A stretch of DNA of 64,000 nucleotides from Carbonactinospora thermoautotrophica (GTDB lineage: Bacteria > Actinomycetota > Actinomycetes > Streptomycetales > Carbonactinosporaceae), in NCBI RefSeq assembly GCF_001543895.1, contig NZ_JYIJ01000018.1, forward strand, positions 682,001 to 746,000, given 5' to 3'. Position 1 is the first letter of the stretch. Every line of letters starts with the position of its first letter. The translations under genes and the position numbers were made by a program. Below, piece by piece: positions 10,163-64,000 of the stretch. The notes under the pieces were generated by a model. It made no database searches, was not told the origin of the DNA, and saw nothing but the letters and a program-made list of their open reading frames with translations.

Positions 10163-10184
10163 CCGCGACCTCCCAACCACCTGG

Positions 10185-10218
10185 TGCACGGTACCTCCCA
10201 ACCCTGGTGCACGGTTCC
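10185..10218. promoter_or_regulatory. Direct repeats in DeoR promoter (operator candidate)
   Basis: TGCACGGTACC (10185-10195) and TGCACGGTTCC (10208-10218) repeat at 23 bp, inside a longer shared CTGGTGCACGGT. An inverted copy, GGTACCGTGCA, lies at 10295-10305. The set is 20-145 bp upstream of the DeoR start, a place expected for autoregulation. Confidence 0.45.
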
Positions 10219-10294
10219 GTGCCCCAGTCTGCGTCATGTCCCCAGGCTGCGCACACCTGCCGCGCTATCGCGTGATTCCGGCCATATAGTGCGT

Positions 10295-20487: not shown

Positions 20488-20594
20488 CCTCCAGGGGTTG
20501 GCAGGCGTCCAGCAGCGACCACCAGGTCCACGTTGATCGTGCCTACCACAACCCGCCCCGACCCGACCGGGTCAGCAGACCACCCGCTACTCAT
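20488..20594 (-). pseudogene. rbsK: Ribokinase N-terminal fragment (second copy)
   Basis: Reading leftwards from ATG 20594, the first 35 or so codons parallel those of the intact rbsK (RVVVVGAINVDLVVAAGRLP in the intact copy; RVVVGTINVDLVVAAGRLP-like here). The fragment ends at the IS3 relic. It follows the intact lacI with the same ATGA overlap, so the original order was GATase1-like, lacI, rbsK in both copies. Confidence 0.85.
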
Positions 20595-21640
20595 GACCGC
20601 CCACGCCTCGGCGGTGCGACAGACTCCCGGATCTGAAGCGATGTCGGAAACAGCTCCGGTTCCCCCTCGGACTTGCCCTCCAACAGATCAAACAGCAGAG
20701 TCGCCGCTCGATATCCCATGTCGTACGCGGGTTGCCGGACCGTCGTGAGCCGCGGGGTGAGCAGCGCGGCGATGGGTACGTCATCGAAACCCACGATGCT
20801 GACGTCTTCCGGGACTCGAATCCCTGCCGATCTGCAGTATTCAAGGGCCCCAATGGCCATCAGGTCGTTGGCACAGAGCAACGCCGTCGGTCGATTCTTC
20901 GCCTGACCCCCAAGCAGCCGCGCCGCGAGTTCCGTGCCGGAGCGTTGCCGGTAATCCCCTACCAGAACCGGGATCTCATCCGGGTCATGACCGGCGGCGG
21001 CGAAGGCCTCTCGATAGCCTGCGAGACGTTGCTCGGCTGTCCACAGCGCCGTCGGACCTCCGATGACCGCGATCCGCTCGTGGCCCTGTTCCAATACATG
21101 ACGAGCGATTTCCCGCGCACCGCGACGAGAGTCAGACACAACGGATGGCAGATCGAAGCCCGGGATCCGCTCGTCGACGAGCACAACCGGGGCTAGTTCG
21201 TTGAGTTCGAGAACCGCGCTCGGTGACGTACCGGCGCCGGACAGGTAGACGACGCCGTCGAGCCGTTGGCTCCGCAGCAGCCTTGCATTGACCGATTCAG
21301 AGGCCCCGCCGGCCGCTTCGGGAGCACAGAAGACGACAAGCACGTCTCGCGCCGAAGCGGCACGCTCGACGCCCTCAGCAAGCAGGGCGAAGAACTGATT
21401 GGCGAGTTCAGGCACCACCAACCCGATCGTGGATGCCGACCGGAGCTTCAGGCTTCGCGCCGACGAGTTGGGCGTGTAGTTGAGTACGCGGACGGCATCG
21501 AGCACGCGCGCCCGACGGTCAGGCGCCACTGGTCCGCTGTTGTTCAGCACGTAGCTCACCGTGCTGACGGACACGCCAGCGTGCCGCGCAACGTCCTTCA
21601 TCGTGGGTCTGCGTTTTGGCGTCACGCGTTCTGTTGTCAC
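20591..21640 (-). CDS. LacI family transcriptional repressor
   Basis: A 349-residue repressor. The N-terminal HTH is PTMKDVARHAGVSVSTVSYVL followed by the hinge NSSARSLKLRSASTIGLVVP. The periplasmic-binding-protein-like sensor domain contains VVYLSGAG, VLVDERIPG, RIAVIGGP, ALLCANDLMAIGAL and VSIVGFDDVPIA. GTG 21640 overlaps the stop of the GATase1-like gene (GTGA), so the two are translated together. The effector is likely ribose or a related sugar, inferred from the neighbours. The site TAGAAACGTATCA in front of this operon suggests autoregulation and defines a probable regulon. Confidence 0.93.
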   Translation of the reverse strand: MTTERVTPKRRPTMKDVARHAGVSVSTVSYVLNNSGPVAPDRRARVLDAVRVLNYTPNSSARSLKLRSASTIGLVVPELANQFFALLAEGVERAASARDVLVVFCAPEAAGGASESVNARLLRSQRLDGVVYLSGAGTSPSAVLELNELAPVVLVDERIPGFDLPSVVSDSRRGAREIARHVLEQGHERIAVIGGPTALWTAEQRLAGYREAFAAAGHDPDEIPVLVGDYRQRSGTELAARLLGGQAKNRPTALLCANDLMAIGALEYCRSAGIRVPEDVSIVGFDDVPIAALLTPRLTTVRQPAYDMGYRAATLLFDLLEGKSEGEPELFPTSLQIRESVAPPRRGRS

Positions 21641-22449
21641 GCCAGTGCCTCCATGTGTGCGGCGGTGGGCTGCTCGGCCCCGGCGGCGCCGCCCCTGCCC
21701 GCCCAGCGCAGGATGGACGCCCAAAGCTGCCGGTAATACGCCCAGTTCAAAAACTCCGGCGGCGCCCAATGCGGGGCCAGATCCGAAGCGAACGCCACCG
21801 TACGCCCCGACCCCGCATCCCCGACCACGAGCAGCGGGTCTTCCCCCACCCGCGCGACCACCGTGCTGCCCGGCTTCGCGACCAGCCGGTTGTAACCCAA
21901 AAGGATCGGCCACTGCGCCGGCGTCCCGCCCAACACCTCATGCCCCGGCACCTCGACGCTCGGCACGACCCCCTCCGGAACCTCCACCCGGTCATCGTGA
22001 TCGAGCATCTCCACCGGCAACACCGACGCCAGCGGGCTCATCTTGTACCGCGCCCGGCCATCGATCCCACTGAACGACATGTATCCGCCAACCATGACCA
22101 GCCCACCGCCGCGCTGGACGTAATCGGCGAGCAGGGCCAACCGGTTGACCGTGCGCTCCGACCGCAGGAACGTCTCATCCGCCAGCAGGAACGAATTCGC
22201 CCCCACATCACTGATGAGGACCACATCGAACCGGTCGATCTCCTCCCTGGTCCTCGGGAACCGGCCGGAGATCTCATGCGCACGCAAGTACGTCACCTCA
22301 AACCCCGAGGCCGCCAGCGCCCCGAGGAAAACCCCAGCACCCTCCTCGTACTCCGTGGTCTGAAAAGAATCGAAACCCTTCAAGTGCACCGTGTGCTTGA
22401 TCCACGACTCTCCGACGACAAGAACGCGGAGCGCCGCCTCGTCACCCAT
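21637..22449 (-). CDS. GATase1-like (DUF1355/ThuA-like) protein, copy 2
   Basis: The protein is identical in sequence to copy 1 (17202-18014); see that entry for the fold. It is the first gene of an operon with the intact lacI. The promoter differs from that of copy 1 and carries the 13-bp LacI-type site 51 bp upstream of ATG 22449. Alternative in-frame GTG starts are at 22455 and 22461. Confidence 0.8.
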   Translation of the reverse strand: MGDEAALRVLVVGESWIKHTVHLKGFDSFQTTEYEEGAGVFLGALAASGFEVTYLRAHEISGRFPRTREEIDRFDVVLISDVGANSFLLADETFLRSERTVNRLALLADYVQRGGGLVMVGGYMSFSGIDGRARYKMSPLASVLPVEMLDHDDRVEVPEGVVPSVEVPGHEVLGGTPAQWPILLGYNRLVAKPGSTVVARVGEDPLLVVGDAGSGRTVAFASDLAPHWAPPEFLNWAYYRQLWASILRWAGRGGAAGAEQPTAAHMEALA

Positions 22450-33039: not shown

Positions 33040-35430
33040 ATGATGACCACGCGTGCGCGGAACGGAGCAGCCGCCGATGAGAAGCTGTTGGAGTGGTCGC
33101 TTTCCGAACTGATGGACCGCGCCCGGCAGGTGCGCGACGCCGCGTTCGGAAGCAGGGTGACGTACTCGCCGAAGGTGTTCATCCCGTTGACCACGCTGTG
33201 CCGGGACCGGTGCGGGTACTGCACCTTTGCCCGCTCACCCAAACAGATGGACGCGCCGTTCCTTTCTCCCGACCAGGTCCTGGAGCTGGCGGTCCAGGGT
33301 GCGCAGGCCGGCTGCCACGAGGCGCTGTTCACGCTGGGCGAGCGGCCCGAACAGCGGTACCCGCAGGCGCGGGAATGGCTAGCCGAGCATGGCTACCGGT
33401 CCACTGTCGAGTATCTGGCCGCGATGTGCCGGCTGGTCGTGGAGGAGACCGGGCTGCTGCCGCACGCCAATGCGGGGGCGTTGCATCGGGAGGAACTGGC
33501 GCTGCTGCGACCGGTGACGGCGAGCCAGGGCATGATGATCGAGTCCCTGCGGGACGATCTGCCTGCCCACCGAGGTGCTCCCGACAAGCTTCCGCAACGG
33601 CGCCTGGCGACGCTGGAAGCGGCCGGCGAGCTGGCGATCCCCTTCACCACCGGGATCCTGGTCGGCATCGGCGAAACCGCGCGCGACCGGCTGGACGCCT
33701 TGCGCGCCATCGCTGAGTCGCATCGCCGGCACGGGCACGTGCAGGAAGTGATCGTGCAGAACTTCGTGCCGAAGCCCGACACGGCCATGCGAAACGCGCC
33801 GGCATGCTCGCCTGAGGACTTCCTGCAGGCGATCGCCATGGCGCGGTTGGTGCTGCCACCCGAGGTGCATGTGCAGGCGCCGCCGAACCTGTCTGAGGAC
33901 TTCGGCGTCTTGCTGGAGGCGGGGATCGACGACTGGGGCGGTGTCTCGCCGGTCACCGTGGATCACGTGAACCCGGAGCGACCCTGGCCGACGCTGGAGC
34001 GGTTGCGCGAGGTGACCGAGGCCCATGGCAAGGTGCTCGCCCCCCGGCTGACGGTGTACCCGGAGTACGCGGCGGAGCCTGATCGGTGGCTGGACGAGAA
34101 CATGCGGTTCGCGGTGCAGGACCGCTCGGACGCCGAAGGCCTGGGCCGCGATGATCCGGGCGCGGTGTTTCCCGAGCGCTATGCCGATGCGCAGAACGTG
34201 GGTACCGGCGCGGAAGTCGTCCTTATCGGACGCAAGTCCACAGCCTGGTACTCCGGCGCAGCGGTTCCCGCGCCGCACCTGGTTCCTGGTCGGGCCCGGG
34301 CGGGCGGCGCCGTGGGCGAGGTGCTGGACGGGGTGCGCAGCGGCCAGGAACTCGGTGAGCAGGAGATCGTGACACTCTTCGCCGCGCGTGGCCCGGAGGT
34401 CGCCGCGGTCGCCGAGCTCGCCGACGAGCTGCGCGCGCAAGCGGTCGGCGATGACGTGACGTTCGTCCGCAACCGGAACATCAACTACACCAACGTGTGC
34501 ACGTTCAAGTGCCGGTTCTGCGGGTTCTCCAAGGGGCCGCTGTCGCTCAACCTGCGCGGCAAGCCGTACCTGTTGAGTCTCGATGAGATCGCCGAACGGG
34601 TGCGGGAGGCGTGGGAACTCGGGTGCACGGAGGTATGCCTGCAGGGCGGCATCCATCCCAGCTTCGACGGTGACTATTACATCGACGTTTGCCGGGCCGT
34701 GAAGGACGCCGCGCCGGACATCCATGTCCATGGGTTCACCGCGCTGGAGGTCACCGAGGGCGCCAAGCGCTTGGGGGAGCCGCTCGAGAAGTACCTGCGG
34801 CGGCTGGCTGACGCGGGGCTGGGATCGTTGCCGGGGACGGCCGCGGAGATCCTCGACGACGAGGTGCGCGCGGTGCTCTGCCCTGACAAGATCAGCACAG
34901 AGGAGTGGCTGCACTGTCACCGAGTGGCGCACTCAGTGGGTCTGCGCTCGAACGTCACGATGATGTTCGGTGCGGTGGAGCAGCCGGTGCACTGGGCGCG
35001 GCACCTCCTGCTGACCAGGGACCTCCAGCGGGAGACCGGTGGGTTCACCGAGTTTGTCGGGCTTCCGTTCGTCCACATGGCTGCCCCGATCTACCTCAAG
35101 CGCCGAGCACGGCGGGGCCCGACCTGGCGCGAAGTCGTCCTGGTCCACGCGATCGCTCGGATCGTCTATCACGGGCTGATCGACCACATCCAGGCGTCGT
35201 GGGTCAAGCTCGGGCTGCCCGGTGTCCGTCAGCTCCTTCAGGCAGGGGTTGACGATGTCGGTGGCACGCTGATCGACGAGAACATCAGCCGCGCTGCGGG
35301 GGCCAGCCATGGCCAGCGCATCGACGAGGCCGCCTTGCATGCCGCGGTGACCAGCGTCGGGCGCCGACTGCGCCGCCGCGACACCCTGTACCGGATCCTG
35401 GACGAGGACCGGCAACCAAGAAGCGCCTGA
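33040..35430 (+). CDS. fbiC: FO synthase (CofG-CofH fusion)
   Basis: A 796-residue bifunctional radical-SAM protein making 7,8-didemethyl-8-hydroxy-5-deazariboflavin (FO), the chromophore of F420, from 5-amino-6-ribitylaminouracil and tyrosine. The N-terminal CofG half has its CxxxCxxC cluster motif at C54/C58/C61 (CRDRCGYC). The C-terminal CofH half has it at C487/C491/C494 (CTFKCRFC). Length and order match actinobacterial FbiC. AGGAGG lies directly before the ATGATG start. Its placement between fgd and pgl is unusual and couples cofactor supply to its main reductant source. Confidence 0.96.
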   Translation: MMTTRARNGAAADEKLLEWSLSELMDRARQVRDAAFGSRVTYSPKVFIPLTTLCRDRCGYCTFARSPKQMDAPFLSPDQVLELAVQGAQAGCHEALFTLGERPEQRYPQAREWLAEHGYRSTVEYLAAMCRLVVEETGLLPHANAGALHREELALLRPVTASQGMMIESLRDDLPAHRGAPDKLPQRRLATLEAAGELAIPFTTGILVGIGETARDRLDALRAIAESHRRHGHVQEVIVQNFVPKPDTAMRNAPACSPEDFLQAIAMARLVLPPEVHVQAPPNLSEDFGVLLEAGIDDWGGVSPVTVDHVNPERPWPTLERLREVTEAHGKVLAPRLTVYPEYAAEPDRWLDENMRFAVQDRSDAEGLGRDDPGAVFPERYADAQNVGTGAEVVLIGRKSTAWYSGAAVPAPHLVPGRARAGGAVGEVLDGVRSGQELGEQEIVTLFAARGPEVAAVAELADELRAQAVGDDVTFVRNRNINYTNVCTFKCRFCGFSKGPLSLNLRGKPYLLSLDEIAERVREAWELGCTEVCLQGGIHPSFDGDYYIDVCRAVKDAAPDIHVHGFTALEVTEGAKRLGEPLEKYLRRLADAGLGSLPGTAAEILDDEVRAVLCPDKISTEEWLHCHRVAHSVGLRSNVTMMFGAVEQPVHWARHLLLTRDLQRETGGFTEFVGLPFVHMAAPIYLKRRARRGPTWREVVLVHAIARIVYHGLIDHIQASWVKLGLPGVRQLLQAGVDDVGGTLIDENISRAAGASHGQRIDEAALHAAVTSVGRRLRRRDTLYRILDEDRQPRSA

Positions 35431-35460
35431 GGCTGTATCCAGGATCGCTTGGAGAACTAG

Positions 35461-36237
35461 ATGACCGATATCGATCGCCGGGCCCATGCGATAGCAGAGG
35501 TAACGGTGCTCCCTAACCCTGCGCGGCTCAGCATGGCGGTGGCCGCGCGGCTGCTCGCGCGGTTGGCGGACGTGCAGTCCCAGAAGGGGACAGCGTCGTT
35601 GGTCCTTACCGGCGGCCGAACAGGAATCGCCGTACTCGACCACGTGAGGCATCACGCGGACCGGGACGCAGTGGACTGGTCGCGGGTCGACCTGTTCTGG
35701 GGCGACGAACGTTTCGTCCCCCGCGACCATGCCGAGCGTAACGAGCGGCAGGCCCGTGAAGCACTGCTCGATCACATCCCGCTCGACGAGCGTCGAGTGC
35801 ATCCGATGGAACCGTCGGACGGCCGGGTCGGGGACGACCCCGAGGCAGCGGCCGCTGCCTACCGTGAGGTGCTCGCCGCCGCGGGCCGGGAGCGTGGTGA
35901 CACGCTGTTCGATATCTGCCTGCTCGGCGTCGGCGAGGACGGCCACGTCGCCTCGCTGTTCCCGAAGTCGCCAGCAGTGCGCGAGGATCAGCTCACGGTC
36001 GTCGCCGTGCGCGACAGTCCGAAACCTCCGCCGACCCGCATCACCCTGACCTTGCCGGCCATCTGCCGTGCCAGTGAAGTGTGGTTGATGACCTGGGGAA
36101 TCGGCAAGGCCGACGCTGTGGCCGCAGCCCTGTCCGGCGCCGACGAACTGACCCTGCCGGCGACTGGCGCTCGTGGCCGGGACCGGACTCTGTGGTTCTT
36201 GGACACCGCGGCGGCAAGCGCGATATCGCGAGGGTGA
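35461..36237 (+). CDS. pgl: 6-phosphogluconolactonase
   Basis: A 258-residue DevB-type lactonase of the NagB/RpiA fold that opens 6-phosphogluconolactone, the product of Fgd. DLFWGDERFVPRDHAERN and CLLGVGEDGHVASLFP are the two signature regions. It lies 30 bases after fbiC. A bacterial operon normally pairs pgl with zwf; here it is paired with the F420 enzyme instead. Confidence 0.93.
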   Translation: MTDIDRRAHAIAEVTVLPNPARLSMAVAARLLARLADVQSQKGTASLVLTGGRTGIAVLDHVRHHADRDAVDWSRVDLFWGDERFVPRDHAERNERQAREALLDHIPLDERRVHPMEPSDGRVGDDPEAAAAAYREVLAAAGRERGDTLFDICLLGVGEDGHVASLFPKSPAVREDQLTVVAVRDSPKPPPTRITLTLPAICRASEVWLMTWGIGKADAVAAALSGADELTLPATGARGRDRTLWFLDTAAASAISRG

Positions 36238-36320: not shown

Positions 36321-37007
36321 TCAGCGCAATCCGGCCGCCGGCTTGTCCTCGGCTGAGCCGATGACCTTGCTGAGCTCCTCTACAGCATGGTTCCGGTGCT
36401 CCTCGAGGAGGCGCACGACCCGCTCGGTGTCCCGGCGGTGAAGCGCCGCGAGGATCGCCCGGTGCTCGAGGTTGACCCGTGCCCGGTTGGCATGCTGGCC
36501 GTAGTACAGGGACCGGTAAGCGTCCGTCGCGTCCCACAAGAGCCGGATCAACCGGACCAGTCGAGGCATGCCGCAGCGCTCGAACAGTCCGAAGTGGAAA
36601 CGCCGGTTAGCCTCGGCCATCGCCGCGACGTCCTGCGTTTCGCTCGCCTTCTCTACCTCCTGCTGAGCGGCTGCCAGCGCGGCTAGGTCCTCGGCGGTGA
36701 GCTTCGCCACCGCCTGACGCACCGCTTCACTCTCAAGGAGCCTGCGGATGAGGTATACCTCGAGCAGGTCGTCGAGGGACAAGTCGGCGACCTTGTATCC
36801 GCAACGAGGGCGGTAGACGACCTGGCCCTCCCCTTCGAGGACTTTCAGGGCTTCACGGAGCGGAACGCGGCTGACGCCGAGGCGGTCCGCCAGCGCGTCC
36901 TGACGGATCGGCTCGCCGGGTCGCAGCTCTCGCGACAGGATCGCCCGCCGCAACTCGCTCAGGACGAACTCCTGAGCCGTCGGTGGTCTTCTCCGCGCTG
37001 CGGTCAC
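36321..37007 (-). CDS. GntR family regulator (FCD type)
   Basis: A 228-residue regulator. The winged helix contains FVLSELRRAILSRELRPGEP and LGVSRVPLREALKVLEGEGQ. The C-terminal FCD domain has LIRRLLESEAVRQAV, NRRFHFGLFE and HRAILAALHRRD with the metal-binding His residues. GTG 37007 is preferred, since AAGGA stands 8 bases before it. It lies downstream of the CoA-transferase gene on the same strand. A near-palindromic site at 38308-38321, between the CoA-transferase and GcdH, is its probable operator, and the ligand may be glutarate or glutaryl-CoA. Confidence 0.88.
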   Translation of the reverse strand: MTAARRRPPTAQEFVLSELRRAILSRELRPGEPIRQDALADRLGVSRVPLREALKVLEGEGQVVYRPRCGYKVADLSLDDLLEVYLIRRLLESEAVRQAVAKLTAEDLAALAAAQQEVEKASETQDVAAMAEANRRFHFGLFERCGMPRLVRLIRLLWDATDAYRSLYYGQHANRARVNLEHRAILAALHRRDTERVVRLLEEHRNHAVEELSKVIGSAEDKPAAGLR

Positions 37008-37104
37008 TTCTTGATTCCTTACTCCTCCGGAATGGTGATCCCGAAGACCAACCCTAGGCAATAGCGCCGAGCCAGGTCGTGCCACAGCGGTGCGCGCTCG
37101 ACCC

Positions 37105-39618: not shown

Positions 39619-40485
39619 ATGAGTGACATTCAGCGTGTCGGCGTCGTGGGTTGCGGATTGATGGGGTCAGGCATCGCTGAGGTTTGCGCGCGTGCCGGAC
39701 TCGACGTCGTCGTGGTCGAGTTGGACGCGTCAGCCCTGGCCGCCGGTCGAGAACGGATCGCTCGATCTTTGGCTCAGGCCGTCCGCAGGGGGAAGCTCGC
39801 GGCGAAGGACGCCGAGGCGGCGCAAGAGCGGATCCGATTCACCGATGACGTCACGCGGCTGGCGGACCGCGACATGGTGATCGAGGCCGTCGTCGAAGAC
39901 GAGGCCGTGAAGACCGAGGTGTTCAGGACCTTGGACAAGGTGGTAGAGCGCGAGGACGCCATCCTCGCGTCGAACACCTCCTCGATTCCGATCATGAAGC
40001 TGGGAGCGGTCACGGGCCGTCCCGAGCAGGTGCTGGGGTTGCACTTCTTCAACCCCGTGCCCGTGCTCGGCCTGGTCGAGCTGGTCCCCTCGCTGCTGAC
40101 CGGCGCGGCCGCGGTCGAACGCGCGGAATCCTTCGTGCGTGAGGTGCTCGGCAAGCATGTCATTCGTTCCAAAGACAGGGCAGGTTTCGTAGTCAACGCG
40201 CTCCTCGTCCCGTACCTGCTGTCCGCGGTGCGGATGCTCGAGTCCGGCTTCGCCTCCTTGCGGGACATCGACGAAGGCATGGTGCGCGGATGCGCGCACC
40301 CGATGGGCCCGCTGCAGCTCGCCGACCTCATCGGGCTCGACACGCTGAAGGCGATCGCCGAGTCGCTGTACGAGGAGTTCAAAGAACCGCTCTACTCGCC
40401 GCCGCCGCTGCTCCTGCGCATGGTGGACGCCGGCCTGCTCGGCCGGAAGAACGGCCGCGGCTTCTATACCTACGCGACCTCCTGA
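39619..40485 (+). CDS. 3-hydroxybutyryl-CoA dehydrogenase family protein
   Basis: A 288-residue enzyme oxidising 3-hydroxyacyl-CoA with NAD. The Rossmann motif GVVGCGLMGSGIAEVCARAG starts near residue 9, and SNTSSIPI, LHFFNPVPVLGLVELV with the catalytic His, and KDRAGFVVNALLVPYL follow. Glu in this HFFNPVP region and Asn in VNALL complete the site. It would act after GcdH and a crotonase to yield acetoacetyl-CoA. The crotonase is not in this window. GGAG precedes ATG 39619. Confidence 0.9.
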   Translation: MSDIQRVGVVGCGLMGSGIAEVCARAGLDVVVVELDASALAAGRERIARSLAQAVRRGKLAAKDAEAAQERIRFTDDVTRLADRDMVIEAVVEDEAVKTEVFRTLDKVVEREDAILASNTSSIPIMKLGAVTGRPEQVLGLHFFNPVPVLGLVELVPSLLTGAAAVERAESFVREVLGKHVIRSKDRAGFVVNALLVPYLLSAVRMLESGFASLRDIDEGMVRGCAHPMGPLQLADLIGLDTLKAIAESLYEEFKEPLYSPPPLLLRMVDAGLLGRKNGRGFYTYATS

Positions 40486-40640
40486 GCTTCGCGTCTCGCC
40501 TCGGTTCGGCTGTCGCAGGCCGGACCGCCCCAGCCGACCTGGATCTGTGCTGGCGGGCCGGCTCCCGCCCGGAGCCGGCCCGCTCGAGGAGTGTCACGGC
40601 CCGGCCGACGACCGGGATCCGAACGAGACAGCTCCCGCTG

Positions 40641-42188
40641 AGCTTGCGATTTAACCCGTACCGCTGGCAGCGGTGTGGGTTTTCTTGATTGCGGGGTGGC
40701 GTTGAGCTGGTCTTGTTCGGCTGCCTTTGGGTCGGCCGGGGCCGCGTCCGGAGGGTTTCGGCGGACTGGCGGGGGTGCCGATCGCGGGGTGGAGTCGCAG
40801 AAAACCTCGTCGGACGCGGGTCGGGGTGAGTTTGGTCGGCGGCAGTGGTCGTTCCCAGGGCAGTCGTTGGTCCGCGACGGCGGTGCGGGCCAACCGTAGC
40901 TGGGTGTAGGCGGCCACGATGATCCAGGTCCACCGGTCGGCCTGCTCGGGGGTACGCACCGCCGGGATGACCCAGCCCAGGGTGTTCTTGACAAAGCGCA
41001 GGGTGTGCTCGATGTCGAAGCGGCGCACGTACGCCCGCCACAACACGTCCAGGTCCGCACTGCCAGACCCGGCCCACCACAGCCACAGGGCCTTGTTCCG
41101 CCCGCACGCCGTGGGCAGGCGTTGCACCTGGACCCGCACGATCGTGCCGGGCACGATCGGTGGGACGGCGCCGGTGTGCCGGCCCCGGCCGGCGAGTTTG
41201 GGGTGCAGCCCGGACCAGGCGCGCACGGTGACCGTGCCGTATTGGGTGTCGCGGCAGGTCAACTGGGCGGTCGGCGGCGGCCAGGTGGCCGGGTCAGCGC
41301 AGGCGAACCGTGCGCCGTGCCGCCGCGGACGCCCACCCACGCCCGGGAGGCGCGGTGGCGGGTCGGCGTAGAAGACCCGGTCAGCGCGGATCCGCACCAA
41401 AATCTGCACGTCCTGCCCGGCCAGGCCTTCGCTCAATGCGATCGGGTCATAGCCGGCATCGAACACAAACAACGGCCGCTGCGCCACGCCGCCGGCGGCC
41501 AGTCGCTCGGCCACCGCGGTGACCTGCCTGACCGTCACGTCGACGGCGTCCTCGTGCGGATGGATGCGGCACACGTCGACCGGAGCGGTCCACGAGTCGG
41601 GCCGCCACGACAACTGGGCGACCCACTGATACGACCAGCCCGCCACGATCGGCTGCCCCGCCGAATGCCGCGAGGGGTGATAGTAGAACCCGCGGCCCGG
41701 GCTGGTCTCCGCGTCGCAGCGCACCCACGTGCTGGCGTCCACCGCGAACACCGGCGGCCAGCCGGCCGGACGGTGCGCCGCCAGCAGGTCCCGCACCGCA
41801 TCGGTGTCGACATCACCCTCGGCGAGAGCCGCATACAGGCTGCCGTGCCCACGCCGAAACAGCGGCTCCAACGACAGGTGCGGCAACGAGGTCACCGGCC
41901 CCGCCGAACCCAGCAACGCATCACCGAGCTCGAACAACGCGTCCCGGCGCCGGCGCAGACATCCGTACCAGCCCCGGCGGAACGCCACCAGCGCGGCCCG
42001 GGCGTCCCGCCGGGGCGGGGCGGGCAGCCTCAACCCGCCCGGATAGTCCACAATGGCAGTCACGGCCACCGCCCATCAACGAGATCCTTCAGCAGAACTC
42101 GAAGATGATCAGGGCGGTGGCCGCCTCACGCCACGCCGACACGCCGGACGACGCGTGCACAGGCGCCCCCCAGGTTAAATCGCAAGCT
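40641..42188. mobile_element. Complete insertion sequence with 16-bp terminal inverted repeats
   Basis: AGCTTGCGATTTAACC at 40641-40656 is repeated exactly in inverted form at 42173-42188, bounding 1.55 kb with one transposase gene. The bases just outside match partly, so the ends may extend a few bases. I could not identify a target duplication with confidence. Confidence 0.8.
40651..42069 (-). CDS. DDE transposase (IS4/IS701-superfamily type)
   Basis: A 472-residue transposase. VFAVDASTWVRCDAETSPGRGFYYHPS provides the first acidic residue, PLFVFDAGYDPIALSEGLAG the second, and VRRFDIEHTLRFVKNTLGW the third (Glu) with the typical YREK-like context. The C-terminus is basic (GRGPGRPKGSRTRP). 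The GTG start at 42069 is followed by AVTAIVDYPGGL. The frame is complete and flanked by perfect inverted repeats, so the element may still be active. Confidence 0.88.
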   Translation of the reverse strand: MAVTAIVDYPGGLRLPAPPRRDARAALVAFRRGWYGCLRRRRDALFELGDALLGSAGPVTSLPHLSLEPLFRRGHGSLYAALAEGDVDTDAVRDLLAAHRPAGWPPVFAVDASTWVRCDAETSPGRGFYYHPSRHSAGQPIVAGWSYQWVAQLSWRPDSWTAPVDVCRIHPHEDAVDVTVRQVTAVAERLAAGGVAQRPLFVFDAGYDPIALSEGLAGQDVQILVRIRADRVFYADPPPRLPGVGGRPRRHGARFACADPATWPPPTAQLTCRDTQYGTVTVRAWSGLHPKLAGRGRHTGAVPPIVPGTIVRVQVQRLPTACGRNKALWLWWAGSGSADLDVLWRAYVRRFDIEHTLRFVKNTLGWVIPAVRTPEQADRWTWIIVAAYTQLRLARTAVADQRLPWERPLPPTKLTPTRVRRGFLRLHPAIGTPASPPKPSGRGPGRPKGSRTRPAQRHPAIKKTHTAASGTG

Positions 42189-42190
42189 GA

Positions 42191-42381
42191 GAGCGTGTTG
42201 CGAAACCGCTTGTCCGGCTCGCCGGCCCCCGCATCCACGCCGGCTACCGGGGGTGCGGGGGTGTCCCCCGCAAGGCACAGCGTCGCGAAGGCCGACAAGC
42301 CACGCCGGTACGTGGCTTGTCCTCCGCCTTGCCGGCGGGATGATCGGCTCGCTGATCGAACAGCGGTTTCGCAACGCGCTC
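42191..42381. mobile_element. MITE-like 191-bp element
   Basis: GAGCGTGTTGCGAAACCGC (42191-42209) and its inverted partner at 42363-42381 match in 18 of 19 positions. TGA flanks both sides (42188-42190 and 42382-42384), a possible 3-bp target duplication. The inside is non-coding. Ends beginning GAGCGTGTTGCGAAA are typical of IS5-like elements of actinobacteria, so it is probably a non-autonomous derivative. Confidence 0.65.
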
Positions 42382-42440
42382 TGAGCTGCCTCATCGCGCG
42401 GCGGCGCCGGTTCGCGGCGACCGGCACACGATGAGATGCC

Positions 42441-42547
42441 TGATTTCGTGCGCTATCCGTCCCTGATTTCGTTTGCTGCCGCCATACTTGACAGATATCG
42501 ACCAAGGCTTGGATGATATCGCGCAATACTTGCTTGATATCGCGCAA
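42441..42547. promoter_or_regulatory. Five-fold TGATWTCG repeat array in the tkt promoter
   Basis: TGATTTCGT occurs at 42441 and 42464, AGATATCGACCAA at 42493, and TGATATCGCGCAA at 42514 and 42535. The last three are spaced exactly 21 bp apart, two helical turns, so bound proteins would lie on one face. A promoter-like TTGACA (42488-42493) with GATGAT (42512-42517) sits inside the array. It controls the tkt-tal-glpX-gnd-pgi genes that follow. Confidence 0.6.
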
Positions 42548-42621
42548 GCTGTCAGTGCAGCTCGACGACGCTTCGCCGCGGCGTCGGTACTGGTGCCGAG
42601 GTTCAGTTCCACGGCTGTGAC

Positions 42622-44712
42622 ATGGATGTGGTGCACGTGATCGAGCGTGATCAGTTCGAGCGGTCTGATCTGGACGCGCGAGCCGTCGACACGGCGCGGG
42701 TGCTGGCGATGGACGCGGTGGAGAGGGCGGGTAACGGCCATCCGGGCACGGCGATGAGCCTCGCCCCGGCGGCGTACCTGATCTTCCAGCGGTTGCTGCG
42801 GCACGACCCGACCGACCCGGACTGGCTGGGCCGCGACCGGTTCGTGCTCTCCTGCGGGCACTCGAGCCTCACGCTCTACATCCAGCTCTTCCTGTCCGGG
42901 TACGACCTCACGCTGGACGACCTCAAGCGCTACCGGGCGTGGGGCAGTAACACGCCCGGCCACCCGGAGTACGGCCACACCGTCGGAGTGGAGACCACCA
43001 CCGGACCGCTGGGCCAGGGCATCAGCACCGCGGTCGGGATGGCGATGGCGGCGCGCAGAGCGCGCGGGATGTTCGACCCGGAGACCCCGGTCGGTGAGAG
43101 CGTGTTCGACCACACCATCTGGGTCATCGTCTCCGACGGGGACATCGAGGAGGGCGTCGCGTCGGAAGCGTCGTCGCTCGCCGGCCACCAGCGGCTCGGC
43201 AACCTCGTGGTGCTCTATGACGACAACCGCATCTCGATCGACGGCGACACCGCCGTCGCGATGAGCGAGGACGTGCTCAAGCGCTACGAGGCGTACGGGT
43301 GGCACACCCAGCGGGTGGACGACGCCGAAGACGTCCAGGCGCTCAACGCCGCGCTCGAGATCGCCCGCGACCACCACGACCGCCCGTCCATCATCGCGAT
43401 GCGCTCGATCATCGCCTGGCCGGCCCCGAACGCGCAGAACACCGCGAAGGCCCACGGCGCGGCGCTCGGCCCCGACGAGGTGGCGGCCACCAAGAAGAAG
43501 CTCGGCTTCGACCCGAACCGGACCTTCGAGGTCCCGGACGACGTCCTCCGGCACGCGCGCAAGGTGATCGACCGCGGGCGGCGGCTGCGCGCAGAGTGGA
43601 ACAAGCGGTACGAGGCGTGGCGGGCCGCGCATCCCGAGCGCGCAGCGGAACTGGACCGGATACGCGCCCGGCGGCTGCCCAACGGCTGGGCCAAGAACCT
43701 GCCCGAGTTCCCACCGGGCAAGGACATGGCGACCCGCAAGGCTTCCGGTGCGGTGCTCAACGCGATCGCGCCGGTGCTGCCCGAGCTGTGGGGCGGGTCA
43801 GCCGATCTCGCCGAGTCGAACAACACGTTGATCGAGGGCGAGCCGTCGTTCGTGCCGGTCGAGTCGGGCGCCAAGAACGCCGACCCCTACGGTCGGAACA
43901 TCCACTTCGGGGTGCGGGAGCACGCCATGGGCGCGGCGTTGAACGGCATCGCGCTGCACGGGCTGTTCCGGCCCTACGGCGGGACGTTCCTCGTGTTCAG
44001 CGACTACATGCGGCCCTCGGTGCGGCTGGCGGCGATGATGAAGCAGCCGGTCGTCTACGTCTGGACGCACGACTCGATCGGTCTCGGCGAGGACGGCCCC
44101 ACCCATCAGCCGGTGGAGCACCTGTGGGCGCTGCGCGCCATTCCCGGGCTGGACGTCGTCCGCCCTGCCGACGCCAACGAGACGGTCGTGGCGTGGCGTA
44201 CGATCCTCGAGCACCACGACCGGCCGGCGGGCCTGTGCCTGTCCCGGCAGAACCTGCCGACCCTGGAGCGTTCCCCCCGCACCGGGCTGGCCAGCGCCGA
44301 GGGAGTGGCGCGCGGCGGGTACATCCTCGCGGAGGCCAGCGGCGGCACTCCCGACGTCATCCTCATCGCCACCGGCAGCGAGGTCGCCATCGCGCTGGAG
44401 GCCCGCGAGCGCCTGGAGGCCGACGGCGTCGGTACCCGTGTGGTGTCGATGCCCTGCCTGGAGTGGTTCGACGCGCAGGAGCCGGCCTACCGTCAGCAGG
44501 TGCTGCCACCCTCGGTGCGCAGCCGGGTCGTCGTCGAGGCCGGCATCTCGCAGGGCTGGTGGCGGCTGCTCGGCGACTGCGGGGAATGCGTCTCGCTCGA
44601 ACACTTCGGCGCGTCCGCGCCGTACGCCACCCTCTACGAACAGTTCGGCATCACCGTCGAACGAGTCGTCGCGGCGGCACACCGCACGTTGCGGGCCTGT
44701 AGCGACGGGTGA
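42622..44712 (+). CDS. tkt: Transketolase
   Basis: A 696-residue thiamine-diphosphate enzyme that moves two-carbon units between ketoses and aldoses. GNGHPGTAMSLAP and GPLGQGISTAVGMA in the N-terminal domain, the ThDP/Mg motif DGDIEEGVASEASSLAGHQRLGN, and in the Pyr domain the catalytic Glu in HFGVREHAMGAALNGIALHG and DSIGLGEDGPTHQPVEHL are all present. No clear Shine-Dalgarno stands before ATG 42622, so GTG 42637 is a possible alternative. It is the first gene of the carbon-recycling cluster behind the repeat array. Confidence 0.95.
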   Translation: MDVVHVIERDQFERSDLDARAVDTARVLAMDAVERAGNGHPGTAMSLAPAAYLIFQRLLRHDPTDPDWLGRDRFVLSCGHSSLTLYIQLFLSGYDLTLDDLKRYRAWGSNTPGHPEYGHTVGVETTTGPLGQGISTAVGMAMAARRARGMFDPETPVGESVFDHTIWVIVSDGDIEEGVASEASSLAGHQRLGNLVVLYDDNRISIDGDTAVAMSEDVLKRYEAYGWHTQRVDDAEDVQALNAALEIARDHHDRPSIIAMRSIIAWPAPNAQNTAKAHGAALGPDEVAATKKKLGFDPNRTFEVPDDVLRHARKVIDRGRRLRAEWNKRYEAWRAAHPERAAELDRIRARRLPNGWAKNLPEFPPGKDMATRKASGAVLNAIAPVLPELWGGSADLAESNNTLIEGEPSFVPVESGAKNADPYGRNIHFGVREHAMGAALNGIALHGLFRPYGGTFLVFSDYMRPSVRLAAMMKQPVVYVWTHDSIGLGEDGPTHQPVEHLWALRAIPGLDVVRPADANETVVAWRTILEHHDRPAGLCLSRQNLPTLERSPRTGLASAEGVARGGYILAEASGGTPDVILIATGSEVAIALEARERLEADGVGTRVVSMPCLEWFDAQEPAYRQQVLPPSVRSRVVVEAGISQGWWRLLGDCGECVSLEHFGASAPYATLYEQFGITVERVVAAAHRTLRACSDG

Positions 44713-45000: not shown

Positions 45001-46125
45001 ATGACCGACCCGCTGCGACAGTTGTCTCGCGAGGGCGTAGCCATCTGGCTGGATGACCTGAGCCGCCAACGGCTCGTGTCCGGCGATCTTGCGGCTCTCG
45101 TGCGGGACAAGCACGTCGTCGGGGTCACCACCAACCCGACGATCTTCCGCAACGCCATCTCCGCCAGCGACATCTACGACGAACAGTTGAGCCAACTCGC
45201 CCAGCTCGACGTCTCCGCAGCGGAGGCCGTGCGTCTGATCACCACACACGACGTGCGATCGGCGTGCGACGTCCTTCGCCCCATCTATGAGGCCAGCGAG
45301 GGGCGCGACGGGCGGGTGTCGATCGAGGTCGACCCCCGGCTGGCGCACGATACCGCGCGCACGCTGGCCGAGGCCCGACTGCTCTGGTGGATGGTCGACC
45401 GACCCAACCTGTTGATCAAGATTCCGGCCACCGAGGAGGGGCTGCCCGCGATCTCCGCCTGCCTAGCCGAGGGCATCAGCGTCAACGTGACCCTGATCTT
45501 TTCCCTCGCCCGTTATGAGGCCGTGATGGCAGCCTTCCTCGACGGCATCGAGGGCGCGCAGCGAGCTGGGCGAGACCTGTCCCGCATCGGCTCGGTCGCG
45601 TCGTTTTTCATCAGCCGCGTCGACACGGAGATCGACAGGCGGCTCGACAAGATCGGCACGACACAGGCACAGATGCTGCGCGGGAAGGCCGCTGTCGCCA
45701 ATGCCCGGCTCGCCTACCGCCTGCATGAGCAGGTGTTCACGAGTGAGCGGTGGCGAAGGCTGGCGGCTGCTGGCGCCCAGCCCCAGCGTCCACTGTGGGC
45801 CTCGACCAGCGTTAAGGATCCCGCATACGACGACACGCGGTACGTCGTCGACCTGGTCGCGCCCGGCACTGTCAACACGATGCCGGAGGCCACCCTCCAG
45901 GCTGTCGCTGACCACGGCGTCATCAAGGGTGACACCGTGCGCGGCCGCTACACCGCGGCCCGCGAGTTGTTCGACCAACTCGCCGCTATAGGGATCGACT
46001 ACGACGACGTCGTACGCGGACTGGAACGCGATGGCGTCGCCAAGTTCCAGGCCTCGTGGACCGAGCTGCTCGAGGACGTCGAGACCGCCCTGGCAAGCCA
46101 CCGGTCACGGAGGGCGTCATGTTGA
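45001..46125 (+). CDS. tal: Transaldolase
   Basis: A 374-residue actinobacterial-type transaldolase moving the dihydroxyacetone unit from sedoheptulose-7-phosphate to glyceraldehyde-3-phosphate. [14 protein letters not shown] and [13 protein letters not shown] are conserved N-terminal strands, the Schiff-base Lys lies in [16 protein letters not shown], and INVTLIFS-like [16 protein letters not shown] follows. [20 protein letters not shown] is present near residue 260. It ends inside glpX by 7 bases. In many actinobacteria zwf-opcA follow tal; here they are replaced by glpX, gnd and pgi. Confidence 0.95.
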
Positions 46126-47138
46126 CTCACCCTGCCAACGAACCCGCGGCGTCGACGGACCGTAACCTCGCGTTGGAGCTCGTCCGTGTGACCGAGGCCG
46201 CCGCGATGGCCGCGGGTCGGTGGGTGGGCCGGGGGGACAAGGACGGTGCGGACCGCGCGGCGGTGAACGCGATGCGCCAGCTGATCAACTCGGTGTCGAT
46301 GAACGGCGTGGTGGTGATCGGCGAAGGCGAGAAGGACCAGGCCCCCATGCTCTACAACGGGGAGCTGGTCGGTGACGGCAACGGGCCGGAGTGCGACGTG
46401 GCGGTGGACCCGATCGACGGGACCACGCTGACCGCGAAAGGCATGAACAACGCGATCTCGGTGCTCGCGGTCGCGGAACGGGGGACCATGTACGACCCGT
46501 CCGCCGTGTTCTACATGGAGAAGCTGGCCACCGGTCCGGAGGCCGCGGACGTGGTGGACATCACCGCGCCGGTCGGGGAGAACGTCCGCCGGGTCGCGCG
46601 GGCCAAGGGCTGCGCGCCGGACGATGTCACGGTGGTGATCCTGGACCGGCCCCGGCACGAGCGGATCGTCCAGGAGGTCCGGCAGACCGGGGCGCGGATC
46701 AAGTTCATCAGTGACGGGGATGTGGCTGGGGCGATCATGGCGGCCCGGCCCAACACCGGGGTCGACTTGATGCTGGGGATCGGTGGCACGCCGGAGGGCA
46801 TCATCGCCGCGTGTGCGCTCAAGTGCCTGGGTGGGGTGCTGGAGGGCAGGCTGTGGCCGCGGGATGAGGAGGAGCGGCAGAAGGCGCTGGATGCCGGCCA
46901 TGACCTGGACGCCGTGCTGACCACCGACGATCTGGTCCGGAGCGACAACGTGTTCTTCGTCGCCACCGGGGTGACCGACGGGGAGTTGTTGCACGGGGTG
47001 CGTTACCGGGCGGGTGGCGCGGTGACGGACTCGCTGGTGATGCGGTCCAAGAGCGGCACGATCCGGCACATCCAAAGCGAGCATCAGCTGACCAAGCTGC
47101 GCGCGTACAGCTCGATCGACTTCGAGCGGGCGCCGTGA
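46119..47138 (+). CDS. glpX: Fructose-1,6-bisphosphatase class II
   Basis: A 339-residue GlpX-type FBPase producing fructose-6-phosphate. [18 protein letters not shown] and [14 protein letters not shown] carry the metal ligands, and [16 protein letters not shown] and [18 protein letters not shown] complete the site. ATG 46119 overlaps the tal stop by 7 bases. Next to pgi it can return triose- and F6P-level carbon to glucose-6-phosphate, as needed for a cyclic pentose-phosphate route or gluconeogenesis. Confidence 0.95.
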
Positions 47139-47167
47139 GACAAGCACGAGCCAGGGAGCGTTCTGAC

Positions 47168-48181
47168 ATGCAGATCGGCATGGTCGGCGCGGGCCGCATG
47201 GGCGCGAACCTCGCCCGCCGGCTCAGCCGGGCGGGACATGAATGCGTCGTCTACGACCGCGACGCTGACGCCGTGGCACGGCTGGAGAGCGAGGGGGTGA
47301 TCGGCGCGGTATCGCTGGAGGATCTCATCAAGAAGCTTGAGACTCCGCGCGCGGTGTGGGTGATGGTGCCCGCAGCGCGAACGGATGAGGTGATCGACGC
47401 ACTCGGCGCGATGATGGACGCGGACGATGTGATCGTCGACGGCGGCAACTCCTACTACCGCGACGACGTAAGGCGGGCGGCCACGCTCGCGGCCCGCGGC
47501 ATCCACTACGTCGACGTGGGCACCAGCGGCGGCGTTCACGGGCTCGAGCGCGGCTACTGCCTGATGATCGGTGGCGAGCCGGTAGCCGTCCAGCGGCTCG
47601 ACCCGATCTTCCGAGCCCTCGCGCCAGGGGTCGAGGCCGCGCCGCGTACACCAGGTCGCGCGGGCGAAGCGAGCACAGCCGAACACGGATACCTGCACTG
47701 CGGGCCGGCCGGCGCCGGCCATTTCGTGAAGATGGTGCACAACGGGATCGAGTACGGCCAGATGGCGGCGCTCGCCGAAGGCCTGGCGATCCTGCGCAAG
47801 GCGAACGCCGGCGCGATTGCCCGGGACAGCGACGCCGAGACGGCACCGCTCGTCGATGCGGAGTTCTACCGGTACGACATCGACGTGGCCGAGGTCGCCG
47901 AGGTGTGGCGCCGCGGAAGCGTGATCAGCTCGTGGTTGCTCGACCTCACGGCAGGGATGCTGCGTGACGACCCGGAGCTCAGCGGATTCTCCGGCCATGT
48001 CGCGGACTCCGGCGAGGGCCGCTGGACCGTGCAGGCGGCAGTCGACGAGGGAGTGCCGGCGTACGTCCTCACCGCAGCGCTCTACGAGCGGTTCAGCTCA
48101 CGCCGGGAAGGCGACTACGCCGACAAGGTGCTCTCCGCCATGCGGAAGGCATTCGGCGGTCACCAGGAAAAGCTGACGTGA
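47168..48181 (+). CDS. gnd: 6-phosphogluconate dehydrogenase, short NAD-type
   Basis: A 337-residue short-type decarboxylating 6-phosphogluconate dehydrogenase (YqeC/GndA-like). The Rossmann motif is [27 protein letters not shown] has an acidic residue after strand 2, which favours NAD over NADP, in contrast to HNRT in the long enzyme at 6634. [30 protein letters not shown] and [16 protein letters not shown] with the catalytic Lys follow. ATG 47168 has AGGGAG upstream; an in-frame GTG at 47135 overlapping glpX is possible. The pgi start overlaps its stop. Confidence 0.92.
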
Positions 48182-49818
48182 GGAAAGCTGGCGGGAACGT
48201 GGGAATCACCTCAATTCCGGCGTGGGCGGCCCTGGAAACGCATTATCAAGCGCTTCGCGACGTGCACCTGCGTGACTTGTTCGCGCAGGATGCGCGTCGG
48301 GGTGAATCGTTGACAGCCGAGCACGACGGAATCTATCTCGACTTCTCGAAGAACCGTGTCACGCGGCGGACCATCGATCTCCTCGTCGCGCTCGCCGAGG
48401 CTCGTGGCCTTCGCGACGGCATCGAAGCGATGTTCACGGGACACCGGGTGAACGCGACCGAAGACCGGGCGGTGCTGCATGTGGCGCTGCGCGCTCCCCG
48501 CGACGCGTCGATCCGTGTCGATGGCGAGGACGTGGTTCCCAAGGTTCACGCTGTGCTCGAGCGGATGAGCCGGTTCGCGGAGCGCGTACGCCAAGGCGAG
48601 TGGCGCGGCTTCACCGGCCAACGCATCCGCAATGTGGTCAACATCGGCATCGGCGGATCCCACCTCGGGCCCGAGATGGCCTACGAGGCGTTGCGCGACT
48701 TCGCCGACGAGCGACTTGAGTTCCGGTTCGTCTCCAACGTCGACGGCAGCGACATCAGCCGAGCGCTCCGCGACCTGCATCTTGCGCAGACGCTGTTCGT
48801 CGTTTCGTCGAAGACATTCACTACCAGCGAGACGCTCACGAACGCGCGCACAGCCAGGCAGTGGGTGCTCGACGCCATGGGCGATCCGGCAGCCGTGAGG
48901 AATCACTTCGTCGCCGTGTCGGCGAACCCTACCGAAGTCGAGGCCTTCGGTATCGACCCGCAGAACATGTTCGAGTTCTGGGACTGGGTTGGCGGCCGTT
49001 ACTCGGTCCACTCCGCTATTGGGCTGTCGCTCATGCTCGCGATCGGGCCGGAGCACTTCCGCGCGATGCTCGCCGGCGCACGCTCCATGGATGACCATTT
49101 CCGCACCGCGCCGTTCGAACGGAATCTCCCGGTGCTGCTCGGTCTCCTCGGCATCTGGTACCGCAACTTCTTCGGAGCACAGACCCACGCGGTGTTGCCG
49201 TACGACCAGCGGCTCGCCCGCTTCGCGGCATATCTGCAGCAGCTCGACATGGAGAGCAACGGCAAGTCGGTCGACTGGGCAGGCCGGCCCATGCCCGTCG
49301 ACACAGCTCCCGTCGTGTGGGGGGAGCCGGGCACCAACGGGCAGCACGCTTTCTTCCAAATGCTTCACCAGGGAACAACCCTTGTGCCGTGCGACTTCAT
49401 CGGAACCATCGAACCCGCACACGGGCTGCAAGAACACCAGGACCTTCTCATGGCCAACCTCTTCGCACAGACCGAGGCGCTCGCCTTCGGCAAAACACCA
49501 GAAGAGGCCCAGCGCGAAGGCGTTCCTGTGGAGCAGCTGGCACATCGAGTATTCGCCGGCAACAGGCCCAGCAACACGCTCCTGATCCCGCGTCTGACGC
49601 CGTACACACTCGGGCAACTCATCGCACTCTACGAGCACAAGGTATTCACCCAGGGTTGGATCTGGGGCGTCAACTCTTTCGATCAATGGGGCGTGGAACT
49701 CGGCAAGGCCCTGGCCAATCGCATATTGACTGAGTTGCAGTCAGATGACCCCCAGCTCGCCCATGACAGCTCGACAAACGCGCTGATCGAGCGGTACCGA
49801 CGCTGCCGCCGTCGCTGA
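48178..49818 (+). CDS. pgi: Glucose-6-phosphate isomerase
   Basis: A 546-residue isomerase interconverting glucose-6-phosphate and fructose-6-phosphate. [19 protein letters not shown] is the first signature, [18 protein letters not shown] binds phosphate, [20 protein letters not shown] and the catalytic Glu in [16 protein letters not shown] follow, and the family C-terminal signature with Lys is [23 protein letters not shown] 48178 overlaps the gnd stop. It is the last gene of the cluster, followed by a strong hairpin. Confidence 0.96.
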
Positions 49819-62816: not shown

Positions 62817-64000
62817 CTACTGATCCGCGGCTTCGTGCGTCAGGACCAGCCGGGTCAACTCGACGCGGCTGGACACACCCAGCTTGGTGAAGGCGTGCCG
62901 CAAATGACTGCTCACGGTGTGCGGAGACAGGAACAAACGCTGGGCGACCTCCCGGTTGGTCAAGCCGTCGGCGACCAGCCGCACCACGCGCAGCTCCGAT
63001 TCGGTCAGGCTGGACCAGCCGCTGCGCGCATGCCGTGAACCCTGGATCTTGCGCCGCACCCCCAGCCTGCGCAGCCGACGCTGCACCCGTGCCGCGTCGC
63101 GCTGGGCGCCGCTGTTCAGGTAGTGGGTGAGGGCCTCCTCCAGCAGCGCCACCGCCTCCTGGCGATGTCCCGCGGCATCCTCGGCCAGCGCGGTGTCCTC
63201 CAGCGCCGAGGCCCGGTCCAGCGGGCGAGGGCTGGCGCGATACGCCTGTACGGCGGCGCGCAGGATGCCGAGATCTCTGGAGAACAACCCCTCAGCGTGC
63301 GCGGAGGCGCCGACGAGGGAGGCCACGGCGGGGTTGCGCTCGGCCAGTCCTCGCGCCGCCTCCAGGACTGCCTCGGCCCGCTCTGGGGCGTCGGCTCGCA
63401 GCGCGATCCGCACCAGGTGCGGACCAGCCCAGGGGGCCAGGGTGAGCAACGACGCTTGCCGTGGCAGAGCGTCGTACAGGTCAGCCAGCGTTTCGAAGGC
63501 TTTCTGCGGCCGGCCGTCGGCTTCCTGGTACAAGGCCAGCTTCCAGGCCAGGAGCTTCGGCCCTATGCCGACGCCTTCCGCGGCCAAGCGCTGGGCCTGC
63601 TCCAGGTACCGGCGGGCCGTGGGCAGCTCGCCGCGCCGCACGGCCACCTCGCTGAGCGTGGTGAGCAGCGAGGGGAGCAACGCCGAGGCGGTCAGTTGCT
63701 CGGCCACTTGCACCCCGGCCTCGGCCTCCGCCTCGGCCTCGTCCAGCTGCCCCGCGGCCAGGCGCAGCTCGGCCAGGAAGCAGTGCCACAGCGGATGGGA
63801 CCACGCGGTGCCCAGCTCATCCGCTTCGCGTCGCCCGAGCTCGTACACGGCGTCGGCCTCGGTGAAGCGGTCCGCCGCGACCAGGGCACGGCCGAGCCAC
63901 AGCCGGGGATGCCGGTGCCGCGCCTCGCCAGCTTCGCCGTCGGCCAGCCGCACGGCGTCGCGCGCCAAGTCGATGGCGGTCTCCAGGTCGCCGCGGGAGC
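62817..64000 (-). CDS. LuxR family (LAL-type) regulator, C-terminal part
   Basis: The minus-strand frame is open to the window edge, so at least 394 C-terminal residues of a larger protein are seen; the N-terminal ATPase domain expected of LAL regulators would lie beyond 64000. The visible part is a series of TPR-like helical repeats (for example LWHCFLAELRLAAGQLDEAE, RRYLEQAQRLAAEGVGIGPK), followed by the LuxR HTH LTESELRVVRLVADGLTNRE and LFLSPHTVSSHLRHAFTKLG. It is a candidate activator of the adjoining cluster. Confidence 0.9.
   Translation of the reverse strand, partial: SRGDLETAIDLARDAVRLADGEAGEARHRHPRLWLGRALVAADRFTEADAVYELGRREADELGTAWSHPLWHCFLAELRLAAGQLDEAEAEAEAGVQVAEQLTASALLPSLLTTLSEVAVRRGELPTARRYLEQAQRLAAEGVGIGPKLLAWKLALYQEADGRPQKAFETLADLYDALPRQASLLTLAPWAGPHLVRIALRADAPERAEAVLEAARGLAERNPAVASLVGASAHAEGLFSRDLGILRAAVQAYRASPRPLDRASALEDTALAEDAAGHRQEAVALLEEALTHYLNSGAQRDAARVQRRLRRLGVRRKIQGSRHARSGWSSLTESELRVVRLVADGLTNREVAQRLFLSPHTVSSHLRHAFTKLGVSSRVELTRLVLTHEAADQ

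Follow-up and report, generated by a model that had tools for sequence, protein, structure and literature searches.

A three-site palindromic array overlapping a promoter-like sequence upstream of the tkt-tal-glpX-gnd-pgi operon of Carbonactinospora thermoautotrophica

The tkt operon and its surroundings

The window, the whole 64,000-nucleotide stretch of DNA that was analysed, contains an operon in the order tkt-tal-glpX-gnd-pgi, and the nearest genes on both of its sides were transposases rather than a regulator. The genes and mobile elements of the locus are:

40651-42069: DDE_5 transposase (Pfam), upstream of the array described below
42185-42387: MITE, about 200 bp long, with inverted ends of 26 bp and many relatives in the genome
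42622..44712, plus strand: tkt, transketolase, the first gene of the operon (Pfam)
45001..46125, plus strand: tal, transaldolase (Pfam)
46056..47138, plus strand: glpX, class II fructose-1,6-bisphosphatase (Pfam)
47135..48181, plus strand: gnd, 6-phosphogluconate dehydrogenase (Pfam)
48178..49818, plus strand: pgi, glucose-6-phosphate isomerase, with 65% identity to the pgi annotated on Rhodococcus plasmid pDK1
50089-50988: transposase after pgi (Pfam)

Three full transketolase genes were found in the genome. The second, at C15, is 73% identical to the window tkt and stands in the canonical order tkt-tal-pgi-zwf-opcA-pgl, adjoining ctaB (names other than tkt were assigned by reading). The third, at C16, is 54% identical to the window tkt, and its region contains RuBisCO (PF00016, E 5.9e-142). 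Because these canonical and RuBisCO-region transketolases are also present, tkt-tal-glpX-gnd-pgi is the second pentose-phosphate set of the genome, with a fructose-bisphosphatase of its own. The organism is described as a CO-oxidising CO2 fixer with RuBisCO (PMC9977764). In the region G000:C16:217000-236900 (L112), RuBisCO and the third transketolase were accompanied by phosphoribulokinase-, cbbX- and LysR-like frames, and the region also adjoins gap/pgk-like and respiratory complex I-like frames (all by reading). On Rhodococcus plasmid pDK1 (L002), tkt-tal, glpX, an F420-dependent glucose-6-phosphate dehydrogenase, a gnd-like stretch and pgi were observed, a content that resembles the window operon. 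The window itself encodes at 33040-36237 a radical SAM and CofH-type protein of 796 aa, assigned by its domains to F420 biosynthesis, and a 6-phosphogluconolactonase gene lies directly 3' of it, a few kb from the tkt operon.

Seven near-full genomic copies of the MITE were found at 89-96% identity, with further ones at 73-79%. When 42150-42640 was compared with its own genome, the 34 other listed matches all ended at or before 42389 (40 of the 137 candidates were scored). Because none of these listed matches passes 42389, the array described below belongs to the tkt side, in agreement with the original prediction that the insertion sequence and the MITE end before the array. A mobile-element origin of the array is not supported, since the listed genomic matches end at the MITE end. 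No terminator was found in 42380-42700. An RNA element was likewise rejected: a search of 40400-42800 against Rfam gave no match up to E = 1, and the fold of the presumed leader RNA was ordinary (z +1.36, with 186 of 200 shuffles folding at least as well).

Three dyads in register with a promoter-like sequence

The features between the MITE and tkt are:

42439..42454, plus strand: upstream element CCTGATTTCGTGCGCT, not palindromic, a possible weak or half site
42462..42477, plus strand: upstream element CCTGATTTCGTTTGCT, 14/16 identical to the element at 42439..42454, 23 bp away
42488..42517, plus strand: sigma-70-like promoter TTGACA-18-GATGAT, 10/12 (mean 0.1 in 50 shuffles)
42488..42505, no strand assigned: putative palindromic operator 1, TTGACAGATATCGACCAA, containing the -35 TTGACA
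42509..42526, no strand assigned: putative palindromic operator 2, TTGGATGATATCGCGCAA, containing the -10 GATGAT
42530..42547, no strand assigned: putative palindromic operator 3, TTGCTTGATATCGCGCAA, just 3' of the presumed start site

Direct reading of the sequence and a pattern search showed that an 18-bp interrupted palindrome, TTGnnnGATATCnnnCAA, is present before tkt in three perfect copies. Each of the three dyads matches this unit at 12/12 specified bases, and they are located 21 bp apart from centre to centre, with gaps of 3 bp. In the resulting 21-bp unit, 13/21 columns are invariant: the palindrome accounts for 12 of these, its full set, and the nine remaining columns for one. The region 42441-42550 is 51% AT, inside a window of 68% GC.

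The original prediction had described five TGATWTCG-like elements before tkt, the last three of them 21 bp apart and a TTGACA among them, and these observations were confirmed. Exact TGATWTCG was found at 42441, 42464, 42514 and 42535, with AGATATCG at 42493 as the fifth element; the 21-bp spacing is exact by direct reading; and TTGACA is located at 42488-42493. TGATWTCG occurred 5 times in the 64-kb window against 1.41 expected, and 0 of 100 shuffles reached 5. The idea of one five-element array held in part, in that three elements share the palindrome and the exact phase but the other two do not. The full TGATATCGCGCAA is present only twice, and the unit common to the last three elements is TTGnnnGATATCnnnCAA. 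The array of five is one array of three with a weaker pair beside it.

Neither of the two upstream TGATTTCG elements is palindromic. They share CCTGATTTCGT.. with each other and match the 18-bp dyad at 8/12 (element 1) and 6/12 (element 2). Their spacing is 23 bp, and the spacing to the next element is 29 bp; element 1 lies about 17 degrees and element 2 about 86 degrees off the helical phase of the three dyads (at 10.5 bp per turn). Such 14/16 pairs were found in 9 clusters across the 64 kb, of which 2 are at 42439/42462, so the pair is weak evidence.

TTGACA-18-GATGAT was the sole promoter-like site in 42380-42700, and it is in register with the dyads: the -35 hexamer forms the left portion of dyad 1, and the -10 hexamer lies within dyad 2. 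Transcription would start near 42523, with dyad 3 just beyond.

In the 5,134,156-base genome, the exact 18-mer dyad was found three times, before tkt, and nowhere else, against about 0.03 expected by chance from the window base composition; the pattern was derived from these data, so that such rarity figures are descriptive and no clean test. Dyads of the form 3+nnn+6+nnn+3 numbered 51 in the window, and the only triple at 21-bp spacing among them was the array before tkt. The array also gave the strongest three-copy tandem signal of the window at periods of 12-40 (10.2 vs 7.4 for the next), and 2 of the 7 GATATC pairs lying 3-33 bp apart in the genome fall within it. In a control of 1.40 Mb from 84 sources, tandem triples more perfect than the array were common. 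Because GC-rich near-perfect repeats (L031, L059 and L012, among the best 25 of 90) have at least as many conserved complementary pairs as the array, symmetric repetition is by itself neither unique nor proof of function.

Imperfect copies of the 18-mer were also inspected. With 2-3 mismatches, 13 other sites were found in the window, most of them far from promoters of interest; together with the dyads this made 16 against 6.29 expected, and 1 of 100 shuffles had as many. Places with at most 2 mismatches numbered 29 in the genome, the three dyads included, against 6 for a reversed control pattern; this control was poorly matched, since CTATAG and GATATC are not comparable. Besides the dyads, 26 places had 1-2 mismatches, and the surroundings of 13 of them (in 12 stretches) revealed nothing convincing as a second target. 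One of the imperfect sites, at G000:C17:375890-375918 (L099 2391-2419), reads TTGCTTAATATCTGCCTAATATCACGCAA, in which two copies of the dyad, each with 2 mismatches, overlap at an offset of 11 bp; it has no covering frame and lies upstream of a glycosyltransferase-like frame (by reading). The dyad was not shared with the other transketolase loci: its best match had 3 mismatches in the RuBisCO region and 6 upstream of the canonical tkt at C15.

Comparison with related genomes and known operators

The original prediction had proposed a motif search upstream of tkt in related genomes, and the result was negative. The 18-mer was found in 0 of 146 other genomes of the same order, the relatives found including none of the same family; the dyad pair was found in 0 of 395 other genomes of the phylum with a gap of 2-4 bp, and in 0 of 292 other genomes of the order with a gap of 1-12 bp (the three sets overlap). 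We also compared 83 related tkt loci, comprising the best 80 of 586 and three more, over 600 bp upstream of each (322 for L015). Neither TGATATCG nor the array was present before any of these 83 genes. The best dyad match before them had 2 mismatches in 1 locus, 3 in 5, 4 in 28, 5 in 44 and 6 in 5, and among 1,660 random 600-base stretches from the same loci the corresponding numbers for 2-6 mismatches were 7, 38, 430, 1,048 and 137. Matches with at most 3 mismatches were thus in slight excess (6/83 tkt upstream regions vs 45/1,660 random stretches), and at least two of the sites behind this excess, those of Actinomadura in L016 and L018, appear to descend from a single sequence. Because only one of the 83 loci, that of Rhodococcus pDK1, also has glpX near tkt (in the fetched stretch), the missing conservation is no refutation.

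We then compared the array with known operators. In E. coli, the sites bound by ArgR are two 18-bp semi-palindromes with 3 bp between them, located over promoters, and paired ARG boxes overlap the promoters of strongly repressible genes (PMC6640053). The array shares with this system, as described there, the 18-bp boxes, the 3-bp gap, the 21 bp from centre to centre and the overlap with a promoter. It differs in having three sites instead of two and in preceding an operon that is not for arginine. ARG boxes, with the consensus WNTGAATWWWWATTCANW in E. coli and TTGCATNNNNATGCAA in actinobacteria, were absent from 42388-42621, where the best matches had 7 and 5 mismatches, respectively.

For Lrp-like dimers, the binding sites lie two or three helical turns from one another (PMC2995911), and the archaeal Ss-LrpB occupies three juxtaposed TTG...CAA palindromes, one dimer per site, with cooperative binding (PMC4046817). 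The regular juxtaposed sites of the array fall within this two-or-three-turn rule as given there, and Ss-LrpB is the nearest three-site precedent, although an archaeal one. Its site is a 15-bp odd-centred TTGCAAAATTTGCAA, whereas the dyad of the array is 18 bp long and even-centred, and the best TTGCAAAATTTGCAA-like box in the region had 6/15 mismatches. By sequence, the array fits neither ArgR nor Lrp-like operators.

In Corynebacterium glutamicum, GntR1 and GntR2, members of the FadR subfamily, weakly repress tkt-tal-zwf-opcA-devB (PMC2230225). That case resembles the present one in being a tkt-led pentose phosphate cluster of an actinobacterium, and a FadR-type GntR gene is located at 36321-37085, 5.4 kb upstream of the array; however, this gene adjoins genes of acyl-CoA metabolism (by reading). 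The GntR operator TNGTNNNACNA gave no site with 0-1 mismatch in 42380-42640, and its best match in 42388-42621 had 2 mismatches. For MalR/AcrC, LacI-family regulators of Actinoplanes and Streptomyces, CTTGC(A/T)G inverted repeats at promoters are described (PMC5526262). Dyad 3 has CTTGC...GCAAG arms reminiscent of these, but dyads 1 and 2 are without the arm, and the GATATC centre is foreign to the MalR/AcrC operator. The best inverted pair of such arms had 3/14 mismatches, which 99 of 300 random window stretches equalled. The operator motifs of Rex (TTGTGAANNNNTTCACAA) and HspR (CTTGAGTNNNNNNNACTCAAG) matched at best with 6/14 and 5/14 mismatches. A CRP-type motif (3/10 mismatches) and a SoxR motif (9/18 mismatches) were rejected as well. 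The remark in the original prediction that no regulator is known with this motif holds for the literature searched, with subscription papers largely outside the search.

The window has 147 frames of at least 150 aa, most of them overlapping, and 30 frames were scanned with Pfam. Among these 30, transcription factors were found at 9362-10237 (DeoR), 20591-21913 (LacI), 36321-37085 (GntR/FCD) and 62817-63968 (LuxR), none of them adjoining the array.

A putative cooperative operator and its alternatives

The position of the array before tkt suggests that it controls the tkt cluster. We consider it probable, with modest confidence, that 42488-42547 is a three-site operator of tkt-tal-glpX-gnd-pgi that is cooperatively bound and most likely repressing. 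One dimer of a regulator of helix-turn-helix type would bind each 18-bp dyad. With gaps of 3 bp, successive dyads would be two helical turns from each other and face the same side of the DNA, which would allow neighbouring dimers to touch and bind cooperatively or to form one oligomer. Repression appears the most likely sign, since protein bound to the dyads would lie over the -35, the -10 and the start region and block RNA polymerase. The signal that lifts it might be a metabolite from sugar-phosphate or central carbon metabolism. The same-face cooperative array over the tkt promoter that had originally been predicted thus survives as three juxtaposed two-turn dyads overlapping the promoter; its five elements were too many. 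Several observations speak against an operator. An operator would normally turn up again beside the gene of its regulator or before further targets, yet there is no further exact site in the genome; the dyads were not conserved in the genomes searched; the 21-bp unit also reads as a heptad in one frame; and transposases, not a regulator gene, flank the operon.

An activator or a regulator of dual sign, for which the outer TGATTTCG elements would recruit and the three dyads set the response, seems unlikely. The upstream pair is itself a repeat (14/16 at 23 bp), and element 1 lies five turns from dyad 1, close to the phase of the dyads. There is also a precedent in Ss-LrpB, whose three cooperative sites at its own gene are associated with a change from positive to negative autoregulation with concentration (PMC2995911). 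The location of the dyads over the -35, the -10 and the start is nevertheless unfavourable for activation, element 2 is well off phase, and the upstream elements lack the palindrome.

In the second alternative, the array would be a coding remnant or a small open frame, in which the 21-bp unit corresponds to the seven codons of a coiled-coil heptad and the spacing reflects protein structure instead of DNA phasing. The frame from 42467, which reads FRLLPPYLTDIDQGLDDIAQYLLDIAQAVSAARRRF..., is open to a stop TGA ending at 42640, and the array within it reads LTDIDQG-LDDIAQY-LLDIAQA, with Leu and Ile at the a and d positions of the heptad. A looser two-unit pattern matched seven stretches of viral contigs, and all 7 lay in an open frame of about 207 nt reading DIxQxLxDI; this reading follows from the pattern itself, the openness does not, and five of the seven are apparently one family. 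The complete dyad was present in 0 of the 7 viral stretches matching the two-unit core. Of the alternatives to a DNA-level explanation of the pitch, we take coding most seriously, and the open frames of all seven viral stretches add to its weight. The codons of the array nevertheless argue against it. TTG, GAT and CAA, used in all three copies, are minority codons, with shares of 12%, 18% and 19% within their families across ten genes of the window. The exact codon set would arise by chance with a probability of 0.0038 in a single copy and of 5.5e-8 in three if these were independent, although duplication would make the copies dependent. The invariant codons TTG, GAT, ATC and CAA show no synonymous change, while the other three codons vary. 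The array has a GC3 of 0.52 and the full frame one of 0.61, compared with near 0.9 in presumed real-gene frames. The frame moreover overlaps tkt and lacks an ATG ahead of the array. We judged it to be non-coding, a quite improbable gene; it illustrates how 21-bp arrays can mimic coiled-coil coding.

A functionless local tandem duplication of a chance palindrome, which more perfect and partly symmetric tandem triples in actinobacterial DNA and the lack of conservation in the genomes searched would allow, is similarly improbable, since neutral copies would diverge anywhere, whereas the invariant columns here are 12/12 in the dyad and 1/9 elsewhere, and the copies overlie the sole promoter match of 42380-42700.

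The three-site array is real, well formed, unusually clean and operator-like, and of a familiar kind; it is not a new kind of system. Multi-site operators of such geometry are a known way to a steep switch, and any novelty would lie in the motif and its target. More tentatively, and as a possibility that we would not call probable, a lineage-confined regulator with an undescribed 18-bp operator may be dedicated to this one three-site promoter, where it would act as a steep, oligomer-based switch that balances this second, gluconeogenic/pentose-phosphate operon against the Calvin-cycle and primary pentose-phosphate sets. An array found once in this genome would offer a direct bait for the regulator that decides when the extra sugar-phosphate set is used.
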